Shown piece by piece: positions 2,633-9,877 of a stretch of DNA of 50,156 nucleotides (position 1 is the first letter of the stretch; each line of letters starts with the position of its first letter). This DNA comes from Clostridia bacterium (lineage in GTDB: Bacteria > Bacillota > Clostridia > Oscillospirales > RGIG8002), in NCBI GenBank assembly GCA_017438525.1, contig JAFRVI010000057.1, positions 1 to 50,156 on the forward strand, read 5' to 3'. Both the position numbers and the translations under genes were made by a program. Below the pieces are notes generated by a model. It was not told where the DNA came from. It worked only from the letters and a program-made list of their open reading frames with translations, and ran no database searches.

Positions 2633-3265
2633 TTAGGCCGAAACCTGAGCAAGGTCGATAGTAAGGCCGAAGTTAGCTGCGAGATCCGTTGTTGGGGCCC
2701 CCGAAAGATCAGCGACCTTGAAGCCGATACCAACGTAGCGGGATTTGCCGGCGGGTACAGCTATAGAAGCAATGTTAGGAGTAGAAGCAGCTACAACAAG
2801 GTTTAACGTATTGTCGGTCGCGGCTATGAGTTGCGCGTCGGCGAAAGTAACCTCCGTGGCACCGGTAGTGTCGGCTGAAGTTGCGGTTTTGTATACCTTC
2901 AGATACTCGGCAAGAGTATTAGTTTCTCCAGAAGTATACGCAATACTAATATTCACAGTTACATCATAGCTATTGTTGTTGATGAGCTTGATGTACCTAA
3001 CGACCTGGGAGCCAGACGTAAGGCCCGTTGTATCTGCATCTGTAGACTTGAAAATCGAATCTGCTTCTGTGAGTTCGGCATAACCGCTGTCAGCCGCGCT
3101 AGACCACTGAACCGCCACATCATACTTGCTCACGGTGATTACGTTGTTCGCGGAAGTCACAGTCTTCGAGAACAGCGCGTAGGTCACGCCGGTAAGCATC
3201 GCAACGCAGACAAGCATAGCGACAAGGCTTACCAAAATTGTTTTCTTGGTCTTGTTTTTCGTCAT
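2633..3265 (-). CDS. Small SipW-dependent signal peptide protein (TasA/CalY-like), surface protein 3
   Basis: 210 residues, the smallest of the five paralogues. The signal segment (MTKNKTKKTILVSLVAMLV...) ends in VTYALFSKTVTSANN; Leu replaces the usual Trp after the cleavage site. The rest is one TasA/camelysin-like beta domain ('VVRYIKLINNNSYDVTVNIS'; 'VPAGKSRYVGIGFKV') without the C-terminal domain of its two downstream neighbours. The ATG is preceded by AAGGAGGAAAACCAAA. It lies 59 bp downstream of the second signal peptidase, in the position tasA has relative to sipW in Bacillus. Its minimal form makes it the best candidate for the main fibre subunit, which is inference. Confidence 0.85.
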   Translation of the reverse strand: MTKNKTKKTILVSLVAMLVCVAMLTGVTYALFSKTVTSANNVITVSKYDVAVQWSSAADSGYAELTEADSIFKSTDADTTGLTSGSQVVRYIKLINNNSYDVTVNISIAYTSGETNTLAEYLKVYKTATSADTTGATEVTFADAQLIAATDNTLNLVVAASTPNIASIAVPAGKSRYVGIGFKVADLSGAPTTDLAANFGLTIDLAQVSA

Positions 3266-3324: not shown

Positions 3325-4155
3325 TTAAGAACCCTCTTCACGGAGCTCCTCAGCCCCGGCTTCGGCGCCGCCGTCGACGGCGGGCTCCTCTTCGGCGGAC
3401 GCGGCGGGTGAAGCGCCGACGTCGACGCCCTGCTCCCCGAGCTTCGCCTGAAGCTTGCGGAGCTCCTCGAGCATCCGCATCGTTTCGGTACGCTCATCCT
3501 CGAGCTGCTGACGCTCCGTTTCCATTTCTTCCTTCTGCTCGCGTCTGTATCTGCGGAACATGCGGATAACGTTGAATCCGTGATACATTATCAGCAGGAT
3601 GAACGGCACGAAGATACATATCATATAGCCCGGCGGCGTCTTGATAAACGCGAAGAAGTCGCCGATGCCCGGTATGCGCCCAACGTATTTGCCGATTATG
3701 TATTGATACGAAACCGTCGAGCGGTCGTCCGAATTCGTCGTCGTACCATAGGTAACAAAAGCGGGACGGCCTTCCGCGTCGGTCGTGCGGCGGCGGATCT
3801 TGTGCGTGATCGTTTCGCCGTAGCTGGAACCGTCGCGAGAGATGAATGTAATTATATCGCCGGGCTTGAGCGTCTCCGGGTCTGTTTCTTTCGATATCAC
3901 GACATCGCCCGCCTTGAAATCGGTCGCCGCCATCGAATCCGTCTGGACAACGAAGAACTTAAAACCGAATATGCCACGGTCGTTCTGATCGAAAACGGTC
4001 ACCGAGAAGATTGTGAATACTACCATGCCTACGGCAAGCGCGACAATCAGAATAAGCAGTACTCTTCTGACAATCGCCGGCCATTTCTTTTTCGGGCACT
4101 CCTCGCTCTCGCGAAGATGCGCGCCGGAATCGTTTTTTTTTACGGTTTCGCTCAT
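3325..4155 (-). CDS. sipW: SipW-type (ER-type) signal peptidase I, second copy
   Basis: 276 residues. Membrane segments lie at about 30-52 and 177-193. The catalytic Ser is in TDSMAATDF (Ser74), and the second catalytic residue is His in ETITHKI (His118) rather than the Lys of ordinary bacterial type I peptidases. This is the Ser-His arrangement known for SipW and eukaryotic ER peptidases; acidic residues in TTTNSDD follow. After the second membrane segment comes a charged, heptad-like tail (about 200-242, Arg/Glu-rich) and an acidic Ala/Glu end, an extension beyond the usual family length. The start overlaps the stop of the upstream copy by 4 bp (ATGA) and has a GGAG site, so translation is probably coupled. 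It is probably the processing enzyme for the five SipW-type substrates in this locus. Confidence 0.92.
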   Translation of the reverse strand: MSETVKKNDSGAHLRESEECPKKKWPAIVRRVLLILIVALAVGMVVFTIFSVTVFDQNDRGIFGFKFFVVQTDSMAATDFKAGDVVISKETDPETLKPGDIITFISRDGSSYGETITHKIRRRTTDAEGRPAFVTYGTTTNSDDRSTVSYQYIIGKYVGRIPGIGDFFAFIKTPPGYMICIFVPFILLIMYHGFNVIRMFRRYRREQKEEMETERQQLEDERTETMRMLEELRKLQAKLGEQGVDVGASPAASAEEEPAVDGGAEAGAEELREEGS

Positions 4156-4922
4156 TTGTCGGCTCCGTCCGCTTCCGTTTCGCCTTCAGCCTCGGGGGAT
4201 TCCGTTTCCGGTGCTTTTGCGGAAGTTTCTACATTATCTATATTTATACCGCTCGCGCGGAGCTGCTCCTGAAGCTCCTCGAGCTTGCGCATCATCTCGG
4301 CGGAACGCTTCTTCTCTTCTTCAACCTCGCTGCGCTCCTTCTCGAGGCTCTCGAGCTGTTCGCGCTTGTAGCGGCGGAATAGGATTATCAGCTTTACTCC
4401 GTTATAGAGGATGAGCAACGTCAGCGGCACGAATATGCAGGTGATGAAGCCCGGCGTAGTTTTGAGGAACAGGAAGAACGAGCCTATGCACGCGATGCGG
4501 CCTTTATACTGTCCTATCACGTATGGGTAAGTCACAACGGTCTCGTCGTCGGTGTCGGTCGTCGTGCCGTAGGTCACGAAGCCGGGGTTGCCTTCCGCGT
4601 CCGTGGTCAAGCGGCGGATCTTGTGGGTTATCGTTTCGCCGTAGCTCTCGCCGTTCTGCGAGATGAAGGCGATGATATCGCCTTCCTTCAGCTGCGCAAG
4701 GCCTTCGGAATCAAGCTTTTTGATTATCGCAACGTCGCCCGCTTTGAAGTCGGTTGCCGCCATCGAATTCGTCTTTACCGCGAATAAACGGTAGCCGAAA
4801 ATGCCGCGGTCATTCTGATTGAAGGTCGTTACCGATATCAGCGTGAACACGATCATCGCTACCGAGAACACAACAAGCAGCCATATGAAGACTTTTTTCG
4901 TGATGTTGAGAGCTTTCTTCAT
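4152..4922 (-). CDS. sipW: SipW-type (ER-type) signal peptidase I, first copy
   Basis: 256 residues and first gene of the minus-strand operon. Membrane segments lie at about 12-33 and 157-181. The catalytic Ser is in TNSMAATDF (Ser53), the His in ETITHKI (His100), and an acidic loop TTTDTDD sits at about 121-127. The core is closely similar to the next gene, so the pair is a tandem duplication. A coiled-coil-like Glu/Lys/Arg tail (about 183-222) and an acidic end follow the second membrane segment. The start ATG has AAGGGG 7 bases upstream. No clear promoter was found between the start and the palindrome at 5049. Two peptidases may serve different substrates or pair through their tails; this is inference. 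Confidence 0.92.
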   Translation of the reverse strand: MKKALNITKKVFIWLLVVFSVAMIVFTLISVTTFNQNDRGIFGYRLFAVKTNSMAATDFKAGDVAIIKKLDSEGLAQLKEGDIIAFISQNGESYGETITHKIRRLTTDAEGNPGFVTYGTTTDTDDETVVTYPYVIGQYKGRIACIGSFFLFLKTTPGFITCIFVPLTLLILYNGVKLIILFRRYKREQLESLEKERSEVEEEKKRSAEMMRKLEELQEQLRASGINIDNVETSAKAPETESPEAEGETEADGADK

Positions 4923-5048: not shown

Positions 5049-5081
5049 TTAAACAACATAATCAGTATTATGTTGTTTAAT
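5049..5081. repeat. Palindromic site, left copy (core CAGT)
   Basis: Perfect 14-bp arms TTAAACAACATAAT / ATTATGTTGTTTAA surround a 4-base asymmetric core CAGT. The 33 bases 5049-5081 recur exactly, reverse-complemented, at 5567-5599. There is no T-run on either strand, so it is not a normal intrinsic terminator. It could be a recombinase site (arms plus asymmetric core), a regulator's operator, or the end of a small mobile element. Confidence 0.85.
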
Positions 5082-5361
5082 TTGCAGGATGGCGCGAAAC
5101 AATCTACATAATAAAATAGTAGCGCGTTTCGATAGCAAGGCCATACCGAAACGGCGTAAACGCAATTCGCGGTAAATGTAAAAGACCGCCTGTACACGCC
5201 CGCGGCGGATCCCTTTTCGCGCGACCGGAGTCTGCGTGACGCTCCCGCGCCGGACCGCGGTCCGCGGCGCCGCTTTCGCCGAAAACACCGTCCGCGAACG
5301 GCTTTTTGCCTCGAAAAGCAAAAAAAGTCAGCTGAATTATTAATTTTTTTCCAAAAAACTC

Positions 5362-5390
5362 TTGCATTTTTCATTCGGAGCGTTTATAAT
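5362..5390 (+). promoter_or_regulatory. Near-consensus housekeeping promoter inside the palindrome-flanked segment
   Basis: TTGCAT at 5362-5367, a 17-base spacer and TATAAT at 5385-5390. Transcription would start near 5397 and run right, through the second palindrome and repeat A, into the gene at 5954 (leader of about 560 bases). Inversion of the segment would point it at the signal-peptidase operon. Confidence 0.75.
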
Positions 5391-5448
5391 AGCGTTTGAT
5401 TGAATAGTCTATTATCGCCTTATGATAAGAAATTGTTGTCAGGCGGCG

Positions 5449-5480
5449 CGCGAAAACCGCGAAAGCGAGAGGTTTTCGCG
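5449..5480 (+). other. Hairpin in the predicted leader
   Basis: CGCGAAAACC (5449-5458) pairs perfectly with GGTTTTCGCG (5471-5480) over a 12-base loop. It lies about 50 bases downstream of the predicted transcription start and has no T-run. The motif AGGCGGCGCGC occurs just before it (5441) and again at 5552. It matches no RNA family I recognise. Confidence 0.5.
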
Positions 5481-5566
5481 ACGACTGTTTGGTTTCACGG
5501 CAGAAGGCCTGCCGGGCGCCGTTCCGCGATCCGCGCGGACGAAGCTCTCTGAGGCGGCGCGCCGAA

Positions 5567-5600
5567 ATTAAACAACATAATACTGATTATGTTGTTTAAT
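5567..5600. repeat. Palindromic site, right copy (core ACTG)
   Basis: Perfect 15-bp arms ATTAAACAACATAAT / ATTATGTTGTTTAAT surround the core ACTG. The sequence is the exact reverse complement of the left copy over 33 bases, so the two sites lie head to head with centres 519 bp apart. The asymmetric core gives each site a direction. Confidence 0.85.
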
Positions 5601-5630
5601 GTTCGCGGCGGAGCGCGAGGGGATAATAAG

Positions 5631-5879
5631 CCTTCCCCTTGAGGAGAAGGTGGCGCGAAGCGCCGGATGAGGTGTAGCCGCCGTAGGCGGCGTCAAGGCG
5701 GATGAGGCGCAGCACATACGCGCACGGTTATTATTGAATAACACCTCATCAGTCTCGAAGGGCGTTGCCCTTCTCGACAGCTGTCTCGCCTGCGGGCTCG
5801 GTCAGGTCGCGGCTCTGACAGCCCACCGGGCTGTCATTCACTACCGCGCCCTCCGCTTCGCTACCCTCGAGGGGAAGCC
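5631..5879. repeat. MITE-like inverted repeat element, copy A
   Basis: The ends CTTCCCCTTGAGG and CCTCGAGGGGAAG are inverted repeats with one mismatch. Inner parts are shared with copy B ('GGGCGTTGCCCTTCTCGAC') and copy C (the stretch starting CTCGCCTGCGGGCTCGGTCA and the 'CTGTCATTCACT' block). No coding capacity was seen. This kind of palindromic dispersed repeat is common in Oscillospirales-like genomes. Confidence 0.7.
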
Positions 5880-5888
5880 GAATAGGTG

Positions 5889-5953: not shown

Positions 5954-7495
5954 ATGACAAAGAAAAAGTCAACGAAGCGCGCTCTGATAAGCTCCCTGCT
6001 TATCCTTGCTATGTGCTTCACCATGCTGGCCGGTACCACTTTCGCGTGGTTTACCGACAGCGTAACCAGCAGCAACAACCGCATTCTTGCCGGTAAGCTG
6101 AAGGTCGATCTGGTTATGAACAGCGGCAATGGCTATGTTTCCATCGCTGACGGACAGGGCGATATCTTCAAGGAAGCGGCTACTGCCAACAACAGCACCG
6201 TTACCCTTTGGGAGCCCGGCAAAACTCAGATCGTCTACCTCGGCGTTGAGAACAAGGGCAACCTCGCTCTCAAGTACAACATCATTCTCAGCATAGCCGA
6301 TCGCGGTCTTGCGGGAGCCCTTCAGTATGTTCTTGCTGATGGCGTTGAGTATAATAATGTTCAGGCCACTAAGTGGGATGACATTAAGGCCGATGCTGCT
6401 CCCGTTGTTGCGGGTACAATCACTGCCGCCCCCAATGGCAAACTCGATGTTGGCGAAACTGATTACTTCGCTCTCGCCGTCCATATGGACGAACTCGCGG
6501 GCAACGAGTATCAGGAAAAGGACGTCATTATTGATGTTGCCGTGGTTGCGACTCAGGCGACTGTTGAAGAAGACAGTTTTGGCAATCAGTATGATGCTCT
6601 TGCCGAATTCCCTGTCATCAAGGCGGCTGACACTTCTGCATTGAGAACCGCTATTGCTGATGCAGAAAACGGAGATATCATTACGGTTACCGGCGATATC
6701 GATGATTACATCGTTATTAATACTGATAAGGAAATCACCATTGACCTCGGTGGTAACACGATAACCGGTGATTCCGACGGTGCCTTCTTTGTTTATGACG
6801 GTACTGTTACTCTGAAGAACGGCACAATCGACGCCGATTATTTCGGAATCCTTGTCGCGGGTGCAACAACCGATAAGAACCCCCATGTAATTATCGGCGA
6901 AGGCGTTACTGTTAAAGGCGACTACCCCATTTTTGTGAGAAAGTCCTATGGCACGAACACCGAAGCTGAAGGAAACGCTACAGTTGATATTTACGGCAAG
7001 GTTGAAGGTATACTCTTTGTCGATGGCAATATGAAGACCGGCGACACCGTCATTAATATCTATGGCGAAATCGAAAATGATGACGTTGCGGTTGCTCTGA
7101 ATGGTAAAGCTACTGTTAACGTTAAAGAAGGCGCCAAGATTACCGGCACCACCGGTATCGAAGTCCGCGCTGGTAAGCTGACAGTTGAAGGCGGTACCAT
7201 CACTGGTACTGCGCAGCCCTCCAGCAACCATTACAATGGTAGCGGAACGTCTACCGCAGGCGCTGGCGTTGGTGTTTCTTATTACGGAAACGCGACTATC
7301 GATGTGAGTATCACTAATGGTAACATCAGCGGTTATACTCCTCTGTACATTGTCAACCCGAATGGCACTGACTACACTGGTAAGGTTAAGGTCAGCGTAA
7401 CCGGTGGTACGTTCAACATCATAAATGGCGGCGCACAGAAGTTCTATGTTGCTCCTGAGTGCACCGGCATTGATTACAGCAACATTTATGCGTAA
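5954..7495 (+). CDS. SipW-dependent signal peptide protein with beta-helix C-terminus, surface protein 4
   Basis: 513 residues. The signal segment (MTKKKSTKRALISSLL...) ends in TTFAWFTDSVTSSNN, almost the same as the minus-strand paralogue at 74-1243. The TasA-like domain (about 31-215) includes 'LWEPGKTQIVYLGVENKG' and 'SFGNQYDALAEF'. From about residue 225 the chain becomes repetitive, with short strands of the type 'ITIDLGGNTITG', 'VTLKNGTIDADYFGI' and 'LTVEGGTITGT', as in right-handed parallel beta-helix (pectate-lyase-like) adhesins. No catalytic residues of a lyase were identified. The start ATG has AGGAGG 8 bases upstream. It is likely a cell-surface adhesin or fibre-associated protein processed by the divergently encoded peptidases. 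Confidence 0.87.
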   Translation: MTKKKSTKRALISSLLILAMCFTMLAGTTFAWFTDSVTSSNNRILAGKLKVDLVMNSGNGYVSIADGQGDIFKEAATANNSTVTLWEPGKTQIVYLGVENKGNLALKYNIILSIADRGLAGALQYVLADGVEYNNVQATKWDDIKADAAPVVAGTITAAPNGKLDVGETDYFALAVHMDELAGNEYQEKDVIIDVAVVATQATVEEDSFGNQYDALAEFPVIKAADTSALRTAIADAENGDIITVTGDIDDYIVINTDKEITIDLGGNTITGDSDGAFFVYDGTVTLKNGTIDADYFGILVAGATTDKNPHVIIGEGVTVKGDYPIFVRKSYGTNTEAEGNATVDIYGKVEGILFVDGNMKTGDTVINIYGEIENDDVAVALNGKATVNVKEGAKITGTTGIEVRAGKLTVEGGTITGTAQPSSNHYNGSGTSTAGAGVGVSYYGNATIDVSITNGNISGYTPLYIVNPNGTDYTGKVKVSVTGGTFNIINGGAQKFYVAPECTGIDYSNIYA

Positions 7496-7536
7496 TCACC
7501 CCCGCGTGACAACACGCACAGCTAACTAAGCTTATT

Positions 7537-7600
7537 GCCGCCCGTTTGCGAACGGGCGGCGGTAGAAGGACACGACGCAGGTTGCGTCCTTCTACCGCCG
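7537..7600. other. Two overlapping, mutually exclusive hairpins after the 5954 gene
   Basis: Stem 1: GCCGCCCGTT (7537-7546) with AACGGGCGGC (7551-7560), loop TGCG. Stem 2: CGGCGGTAGAAGGAC (7557-7571) with GTCCTTCTACCGCCG (7586-7600). The two share 7557-7560, so both cannot form fully at once. No T-run follows either. They lie within a 405-bp gap (7496-7900) that otherwise holds repeat B and the ribosome binding site of the next gene. Confidence 0.55.
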
Positions 7601-7806
7601 GAAAGGCGACCACAGAGCGTTGAACACCTCCATCAGACGAGGGAGGTGGCATCCGAGGCGAAGCCGAGGATGACGGAGGGAGTGAAAGGCCTCTCCTTCA
7701 ACACTCCGTTCGCGAAAGAGGCAGGGTTTTCCCTCCCTCAGTCTCGAATGGCGTTGCCCTTCTCGACAGCTCCCTCGTCTGAGGGAGCTCCACCGCCGGA
7801 AAGGCG
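7594..7806. repeat. 15-bp direct repeats flanking repeat B
   Basis: ACCGCCGGAAAGGCG occurs at 7594-7608 and again at 7792-7806, bracketing repeat copy B. It could be a duplicated target, a part of a larger composite repeat, or a recombination scar. Confidence 0.6.
7625..7793. repeat. MITE-like inverted repeat element, copy B
   Basis: The ends (CAGACGAGGGAG and CTCCCTCGTCTG) are inverted repeats. The inner block 'CAGTCTCGAATGGCGTTGCC' matches copy A closely. It is non-coding; an open frame that runs through it into the next gene is an accident of the repeat. Confidence 0.65.
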
Positions 7807-7900
7807 GAAAGGTTACATATTTATAAATCATAAGAGGCGCATATCGCCGCTTTTGATCCGAAATGTTAATTACCCCCCAAAACACAAAGGAGGAGACACA

Positions 7901-9877
7901 ATGAAAAAACAGAAATCAGCCAAGCGTGCGTTTCTGAGCAGCTTCCTGTCGTTCGTGCTGTGCTTCACGATGTTCGCCGGCACCACCTACGCGTGGTATA
8001 ACGACAGCGTCACCAGCGGCAGAAACAAGATCGTCTCCGGCAGCTTGGAAATGGTGATTGAGAAGTACACCGGCGAAAATGACGGCGGTTTCTCCAATGA
8101 GGACAATTGGGTAACCGTGACCGATCAGACCAAGATTTTCAACGAGACTGCCGGCGCGCTTACCTTCGAGCCCGGCGCGGTACAGGTCGCGTACGTCCGC
8201 GTTAAGAACGAGGGCGATCTCGCGTTCAAGTACAGTCTCGCCGCGAAGGTTTATGAAGAGAAGGAAGGAACCAATCAGGTCGGAGTTACCTATAAGCTCT
8301 CCAATTACCTGAAGTTCGGTCAGGCGCAGAACGTTACCGCTCCTTTCGCCACCCGCGAAGACGCGATTAGCGCTATCGGCACCGCCGGTAAGATCTCTGA
8401 TACCGAGCTGGTTCCCACCGCGAATCTGCAGAAGAAAACTACCTCCGGCGTTATCGCGCTCGTTATTTATCTGCCGAGCAATACCGGCAATGAAGCAAAC
8501 CCGCTGCCGAACGCGAAGCCCGAGATCAGCTTCGGCCTGAACGCCCTTGCGACTCAGTTCACCGTCGAGAGCGACAGCTTCAGCAACACTTACGACGCCC
8601 TCTCCGAGTTCCCCGGACAGGCGATTTCCAACGCGACTGTTCCCGCGACCGGTGAAACGGTCATCACTGCTGGCGAAAACACCGCCACGGTTCCCGCCGG
8701 TTCCGAAAATGCCGCTCCCGGCGACGTCCTGACGCTTACCGTCACGCCCACGAGCACCGACGCCTCCGTGGTTATCAATAACAGCAACAACGCGATAACC
8801 TACGACGTTTCCCTCGTGAATCAGAACGGGCAGAAGGTCTCGAGCTCGACCGGCATCACTGTCGAAATGAAAATCGGTCAGGTCGATATTCAGGGATTCT
8901 ATCACAACTCGACCGCGCTTACCGAGGTCGATGATATCGCCGATCTTGCGCTGAATAAGTATTACTACGATCCCGTTGAAGGAGTCATCACCTTCATCAC
9001 CGATTCCTTCAGTCCCTTCACCGCCGAGATTAAGTATTCCGGCGGCTTCGGCGACGAGGATTATCCTTATCTCATCTCGAGCGCGAAGGACTTCCGCGCC
9101 ATTGCGAACGATTATGAGTATGACGCCGATTGGGAGCAGAGCCTGAATGAGTATTGCTACAAGCTTACAAGCGACATCACGATTGAAAACTGGTGCATGA
9201 ACGTCATCTACGTAATGAAGGGCGAATTTGCTCACGACTCTTATTCGGGCGTTTACTTCGGCGTTTTCGACGGCGGCAATCATACCATCCGTTTCAACTG
9301 GAACGATGATTCAGCGATGCCTGAGACTTCAGCCATCGCGCTGTTCGGCGAAGTCTGCAACGGCACGATTAAGAATCTGAAGGTCGACTGCAATATCGTG
9401 ACCGGCCTCGATACCGGCGTTCTGTCGTCATATACCTACTACGGCGCACAGTTCGATAACGTCACCGTTTCCGGTACGATTCGCTCTAAGTCCGGCAATA
9501 TCGGCGGAATTACAGTTGCTGCATGGGAAACGAAATCAAACTACCACTCGCTGTTCAAAGACTGCACCGTGAGCGCGGATATTTACTGGGAGCCGTGCAA
9601 TAAAGGAGCCGGATACCTGTATGTCGCTCCGTTCATCGGGCAGCTGGTCGGCGGCACTTATCTCTCCTTTGATAACTGCGTCAGCAGCGGTACGCTGAAT
9701 ATTCCGTATAACAGCACCGTCAGCGATATTTACACCGGTACTCTTTACGCCAGGAATCCGGGTTACGCCGACGTTCCGGAAGCCAACCTGATAAATATGG
9801 AAGGCAAGGTCGGCGACGCCGCCTTCGCGGCCATCAGCAATATTTACGAGGGATACACTATTCACATGGACAGATAA
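7901..9877 (+). CDS. SipW-dependent signal peptide protein with long modular C-terminus, surface protein 5
   Basis: 658 residues from the ATG preceded by AAAGGAGG. The open frame continues upstream into repeat B, but that part has no signal-peptide logic and was excluded. The signal segment ends in TTYAWYNDSVTSGRNKI. The TasA-like domain (about 32-235) has 'TFEPGAVQVAYVRVKNEG' and 'SFSNTYDALSEF'. A beta-sandwich-like part (about 240-385) ending in 'FITDSFSPFTAEI' follows. The last part (about 390-658) starts 'DYPYLISSAKDFRAIAND' and contains 'FDGGNHTI' and 'ALFGEVCNGTIKNL', resembling GLUG/beta-helix surface repeats. It is likely a large surface adhesin; the ligand is unknown. A strong terminator follows. 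Confidence 0.87.
   Translation: MKKQKSAKRAFLSSFLSFVLCFTMFAGTTYAWYNDSVTSGRNKIVSGSLEMVIEKYTGENDGGFSNEDNWVTVTDQTKIFNETAGALTFEPGAVQVAYVRVKNEGDLAFKYSLAAKVYEEKEGTNQVGVTYKLSNYLKFGQAQNVTAPFATREDAISAIGTAGKISDTELVPTANLQKKTTSGVIALVIYLPSNTGNEANPLPNAKPEISFGLNALATQFTVESDSFSNTYDALSEFPGQAISNATVPATGETVITAGENTATVPAGSENAAPGDVLTLTVTPTSTDASVVINNSNNAITYDVSLVNQNGQKVSSSTGITVEMKIGQVDIQGFYHNSTALTEVDDIADLALNKYYYDPVEGVITFITDSFSPFTAEIKYSGGFGDEDYPYLISSAKDFRAIANDYEYDADWEQSLNEYCYKLTSDITIENWCMNVIYVMKGEFAHDSYSGVYFGVFDGGNHTIRFNWNDDSAMPETSAIALFGEVCNGTIKNLKVDCNIVTGLDTGVLSSYTYYGAQFDNVTVSGTIRSKSGNIGGITVAAWETKSNYHSLFKDCTVSADIYWEPCNKGAGYLYVAPFIGQLVGGTYLSFDNCVSSGTLNIPYNSTVSDIYTGTLYARNPGYADVPEANLINMEGKVGDAAFAAISNIYEGYTIHMDR

Follow-up and report, generated by a model that had tools for sequence, protein, structure and literature searches.

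The segment at 5049-5599 of a 50,156-nt stretch of DNA from a Clostridia bacterium (the window, meaning that stretch at its full length) raises the question of whether two palindromes in opposite orientation, placed around a promoter between divergent surface-protein genes, allow that promoter to be turned round, so that one or the other set of genes is read. Tyrosine recombinases are well known to drive invertible promoters, and the initial annotation had proposed such a switch here, with a looping regulator and a small mobile element as alternatives. We conclude with high confidence that 5049-5599 is an inverton, in which a recombinase encoded elsewhere in the genome (family B) would invert about 520 bp, leading to a phase-variable choice of two surface-protein sets.

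Two inverse sites around a promoter

Both palindromes lie where they had been reported, with perfect 14-nt arms and the cores CAGT (left) and ACTG (right), and the distance of 519 bp between the two repeats is as claimed. Identity between the copies in inverse orientation proved exact, as the initial annotation had it, and extends over 35 nt (5049-5083 and 5565-5599) rather than the 33 that had been given. An 11-6-11 arrangement, which is the Xer geometry, is a better reading of the site anatomy than 14-4-14: each site consists of two inverted half-sites, of consensus TTATGTTGTA, around a 6-nt centre. The elements of the switch are as follows.

5049-5083, + strand: left recombination site, an exact 35-nt inverse repeat of 5565-5599 showing the family consensus; half-sites AAACAACATAA (5051-5061) and TTATGTTGTTT (5068-5078), centre TCAGTA (5062-5067)
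5565-5599, - strand: right recombination site, in inverse orientation; its centre reads TACTGA on the + strand (5581-5586)
5065-5584, no strand: segment predicted from the matched centres to invert, with crossover inside the 6-nt centres
5362-5390, + strand: promoter TTGCAT-17-TATAAT, now facing the right arm, with the same layout in sister switches

Inverted repeats enclose a promoter-bearing segment, and the crossover region is identical and in inverse orientation at its two ends, as is expected of an inverton. The palindrome pair represents the sole copies in the 1.85-Mb genome when up to three mismatches are allowed (a reversed-pattern control gave 0); within the window the arm has seven matches at up to three mismatches, far above the 0.9 expected by chance. 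Two features count against inversion: the contig crosses both sites in one orientation, and the 519-bp segment is longer than that of most relatives (about 150-420 bp).

The promoter that had been described was confirmed, facing right; an automatic scan misses it because the -35 hexamer matches only three of six bases. Neither the segment between the sites nor the sequence upstream of 4922 yielded a leftward promoter of similar quality, in agreement with the initial annotation. If the segment were inverted, the promoter is computed to lie at 5286-5258 and to face the left operon, whose first ATG would be 336 bp away. The genes on either side are listed here.

4152-4922, - strand: first left-arm gene, a SipW-like signal peptidase (E 4.8e-17 with the NCBIfam SipW model, under its cut-off)
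3325-4155, - strand: second SipW-like signal peptidase, left arm (same model, E 8.2e-22, under its cut-off)
2633-3265, - strand: secreted-type protein of 210 aa, left arm (N-terminus judged by eye; without a family match)
1399-2598, - strand: SipW-dependent-type surface protein, left arm (TIGR04088, 19.1 bits against a cut-off of 19, genome search)
74-1243, - strand: SipW-dependent-type surface protein, left arm (TIGR04088)
5954-7495, + strand: SipW-dependent-type surface protein, right arm, first gene after the promoter (TIGR04088; borderline match to the camelysin model PF12389)
7535-9877, + strand: second right-arm surface protein (reading frame; TIGR04088 at 7970-8047), its true start probably being the internal ATG of MKKQKSAKRAF

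Since the left operon adds two SipW-like signal peptidases, both arms of the window concern one surface system. At 5610-5880, between the right site and the first gene of the right arm, the sequence is repeat-like, and similar sequence occurs upstream of the probable orthologue in sister genome G003 (L054).

Sister loci in the genus

With the search pattern loosened to AACATAA-N6-TTATGTT, the site family was found in all four available species of the window's genus. Ten loci besides the window were recovered, seven of them in genome G001, two in G002 and a single one in G003. Eight of the ten have both sites assembled, and at all eight the centres are inverse (seven exactly, one with a single mismatch).

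G001 C22: centres TGCATA/TATGCA, exact reverse complements
G001 C56: centres TTGGCA/TGCCAA, exact reverse complements
G001 C103: centres TGAGCA/TGCTCA, exact reverse complements
G001 C20: centres TAAATG/CATTTA, exact reverse complements
G001 C125: centres TCCCTA/TAGGGA, exact reverse complements
G001 C89: centres CGTCAA/TTGACG, exact reverse complements
G002 C71: centres TTGCTA/TAGCAA, exact reverse complements
G001 C151: centres differ at one position; arms of the second site degraded
G002 C75: single site, 125 bp from a contig end
G003 C4: single site, 18 bp from a contig end

The seven loci of G001 have seven different centres. The centre at G003 C4 is that of the window, in the same orientation relative to the gene, and this is probably the orthologous locus. 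All 11 loci of the genus, the window included, lie upstream of genes for secreted proteins of the SipW-dependent type; TIGR04088 (NCBIfam) matches the surface proteins at ten of them, and the protein at G002 C75 was assigned by its N-terminus. Each genus switch with both sites assembled has one promoter, with 17-bp spacing. It points towards the surface gene at C22, C56, C103, C20 and C151 and in the window, where that gene belongs to the right arm, and by eye also at C125 and C89; at G002 C71 it points away.

A switch that once worked but has become locked in one orientation might present a similar picture, and both the single pair left in the genome and the assembly of the contig in one orientation are consistent with this. 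Arms and centres are nevertheless identical over 35 nt in the window, the degraded partners being those at some sister loci, and the recombinase gene described below is intact; we regard a locked state as unlikely. The comparison of sequences indicates that the window segment can very probably flip, selecting which neighbouring surface-gene set is read.

Two sister loci have additional features. At G002 C75, a c-di-GMP-I riboswitch (L053:286-362; Rfam RF01051, 61 bits) lies between the site-adjoining promoter and the gene for an 1852-aa SipW-like surface protein, which may be under the control of both the switch and c-di-GMP. At G001 C89, an SLH-type reading frame (L051:6919-7756) begins right at the right recombination site; it seems to be without most of a signal peptide, and there is an in-frame stop inside the site.

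The candidate recombinase and the matching of centres

Further sites were sought in 394 genomes of the order and in a wider contig collection, for which counts are those among the matches listed. Among these matches, sites were found in Lachnospiraceae, Oscillospiraceae and other Clostridia. The family half-site consensus is that given above; the middle bases of the 6-nt centre are free and its bounds are usually T and A.

Of the two tyrosine recombinase families tested (A and B), neither is encoded in the window, in line with the earlier remark that no recombinase gene is present there. The genome of the window (G000) has one intact family-B gene, at C14:921-1763, and one intact copy is present in each of the three sister species. 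Family B is a stand-alone Xer-like protein in which the catalytic R, K, HxxR, H and Y of tyrosine recombinases are conserved. It aligns with XerA, XerC and XerD at scores (116, 101 and 96) below the curated cut-offs of 220, 335 and 330, and falls outside all three equivalogs; its sequence suggests that it works like a Xer recombinase though it is not classed as one.

When 86 non-redundant matched pairs were counted among the matches listed (a few three-site loci enter more than once), 68 proved to have a family-B gene no more than 1 kb away (median distance 33 bp), and in all 68 of these neighbouring cases its 3′ end faces the sites. Across the 394 genomes, family B is present in 42 of the 52 that bear sites and in 69 of the 342 that do not (Fisher p=2e-17, or 1e-15 when the genus is left out), p-values that overstate independence since the genomes are related. 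Two results count against the proposed role of family B. Ten of the 52 site-bearing genomes gave no family-B match at the cut-off used, some of their sites being unpaired, and no sites were found next to family B in the window's genus. Family B would therefore act in trans in this genus, and its role at the window is argued from homology and co-occurrence.

Inversion by another enzyme, whether a serine recombinase or family A, the main XerC/D-like recombinase, seems decidedly improbable. The half-site motif TTATGTT resembles the XerD half of dif, being the inner part of that half in E. coli; family A is present in all four genus genomes, and the window's genome has two serine-recombinase matches, both on other contigs. 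However, it is family B, not A, that adjoins the sites in 68 loci and co-occurs with them among the matches listed, and a search for a canonical Bacillota dif in the window's genus found none with which the sites could be compared.

The matching of centres was assessed with one adjacent pair of sites, 100-700 bp apart, per locus. Centres are exactly inverse in 75 of 84 loci and directly matching in none, among the matches listed, as compared with 1.3 exactly inverse pairs on average, and 7 at most, when partners were permuted 10,000 times. Arm conservation is partly built into the search pattern, whereas the centre match is not. This test rejects both looping operators and the ends of a mobile element. 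Control of the divergent arms by one looping regulator bound to two operators would account for perfect palindromes that flank a promoter between divergent genes, but it needs no inverse matching of a variable centre of the kind found here, and elsewhere a tyrosine recombinase gene adjoins the sites; we consider it very improbable. The ends of a small MITE-like element have just as little claim: terminal inverted repeats about 520 bp apart with a non-coding segment inside would fit, but a single element would have the same ends in all its copies, while here the centres vary by locus and match only within a pair, the sites are always upstream of target genes, the genome is without another copy, and a target-site duplication was not seen by eye.

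Inversion by a tyrosine recombinase, as the initial annotation had inferred, is thus supported by inverse, matched, asymmetric centres, by related loci elsewhere and by a candidate for the cognate recombinase. The comparison of sister genomes and the search for other arm copies and a recombinase, which had been suggested as checks, yielded the ten genus loci and family B on contig C14; the copies come as inverse pairs, and the many single regulator sites that would have spoken for another function were not seen. Outside Clostridia, exact single matches (Arthrobacter, Domibacillus, Roseiflexus and others, among the matches listed) have no matched partner in the DNA examined, and we ascribe them to chance or other biology.

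Over all genera, and among the matches listed, 33 switches have the inner promoter facing the recombinase (target off) and 14 have it facing the other way; the direction is unclear in 21. Of 144 exact sites among the matches listed, 14 are no more than 150 bp from a contig end, against 2.4 expected; since typical assembly words are longer than the sites, mixed orientations are a natural cause of this excess, though it may have others. The two promoter directions and the excess at contig ends lend indirect support to the existence of both orientations. Where closely homologous switches were compared, most had their inner segments oriented alike and a few showed short, ambiguous reversals, which counts against flipping; this comparison was left out of the evidence for flipping.

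Proposed mechanism and relation to known switches

Family B (C14:921-1763) would bind the four inverted half-sites, and the two sites would be brought together, with synapsis in inverse alignment. Strand exchange within the identical 6-nt centres TCAGTA/TACTGA would then invert about 520 bp. As assembled, the promoter would drive the right arm (5954-9877); once inverted, it would drive the left operon, with its two sipW-like genes and the genes for three secreted proteins. To judge from their pattern, centres that differ from locus to locus would block recombination of one locus with another; a small number of loci might also come to differ in this way without selection. We lean towards a broader reading, in which one Xer-like recombinase runs promoter switches of SipW surface-protein genes genome-wide, with common arms and locus-specific 6-nt centres leading to independent flips while the chromosome between them stays unrearranged, and in which the window would select between two divergent programmes, one of them encoding SipW-type peptidases.

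The geometry and the inner half-site TTATGTT liken these sites to Xer/dif, as does the alignment of family B with XerA, XerC and XerD. Unlike dif, the half-sites of the window's family are alike and the sites form inverse pairs around a promoter, and family B scores far under the curated Xer cut-offs. In C. difficile, RecV, a tyrosine recombinase of the XerC/XerD family, acts on several scattered switches, including that of the surface-protein gene cwpV (PMC2784873, PMC5903667). By its published description it resembles the present system in having one Xer-type recombinase, scattered switches and a surface-protein target; most C. difficile switch repeats are, however, reported to be mutually unrelated, and the cwpV segment is without a promoter, unlike the window (PMC2784873, PMC5903667). 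Mpi of Bacteroides fragilis is cited as one master recombinase that flips many scattered surface-gene promoters (cited in PMC5903667). Mpi is a serine recombinase from another phylum, unlike family B.

Closer still may be inverton group 139, linked with invertase group 35, in a read-based study of a defined gut community, which gives 32 of 33 invertons as coming from Clostridia, a repeat spacing of 231 and 241 bp in two cited examples, a linked tyrosine-type recombinase nearby and orientation ratios that shift in culture (PMC11892184). Group 139 is probably the same family as the present sites, with which it agrees in class, spacing and recombinase adjacency. The window's genus differs from group 139 as described there in that its recombinase gene lies away from the sites and its switches serve SipW-type proteins (PMC11892184).

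Among the papers searched, none prints the motif as part of an inversion site. To what was known, the present analysis adds a site anatomy whose matched centres are specific to each locus, a switch that chooses between two divergent arms and the likely working in trans of one recombinase on several SipW-type surface genes of a small genus. The sequence rule (TTATGTTGTA arms with matched 6-nt centres) provides for the finding of promoter switches and their recombinase without reads in uncultured gut and rumen Clostridia. The data point to phase variation of SipW/TasA-like surface proteins, and suggest that common arms with locus-specific centres could let one recombinase serve many loci while the chromosome remains unscrambled.

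Variant layouts were seen among the wider loci. Some switches, at L140, L149, L165 and L206, have three sites each: the additional one shares the centre, is in direct orientation and lies 41-46 bp from one end. At L169 (3692-4687) there are two tandem switches with four sites and one common centre, adjoining short proteins that by eye resemble NusG/LoaP-type antiterminators. L214 (614-1013) has similar secreted-protein genes on both flanks, with the same signal peptide (MKRKLLCIAVAIIMILPLAFAAIPMASAA), in a two-arm layout like that of the window. In other genera, at L093 and L216, a recombinase-linked switch lies, by eye, directly upstream of a SipW-like signal peptidase gene, and this layout links the recombinase family with the SipW secretion system.
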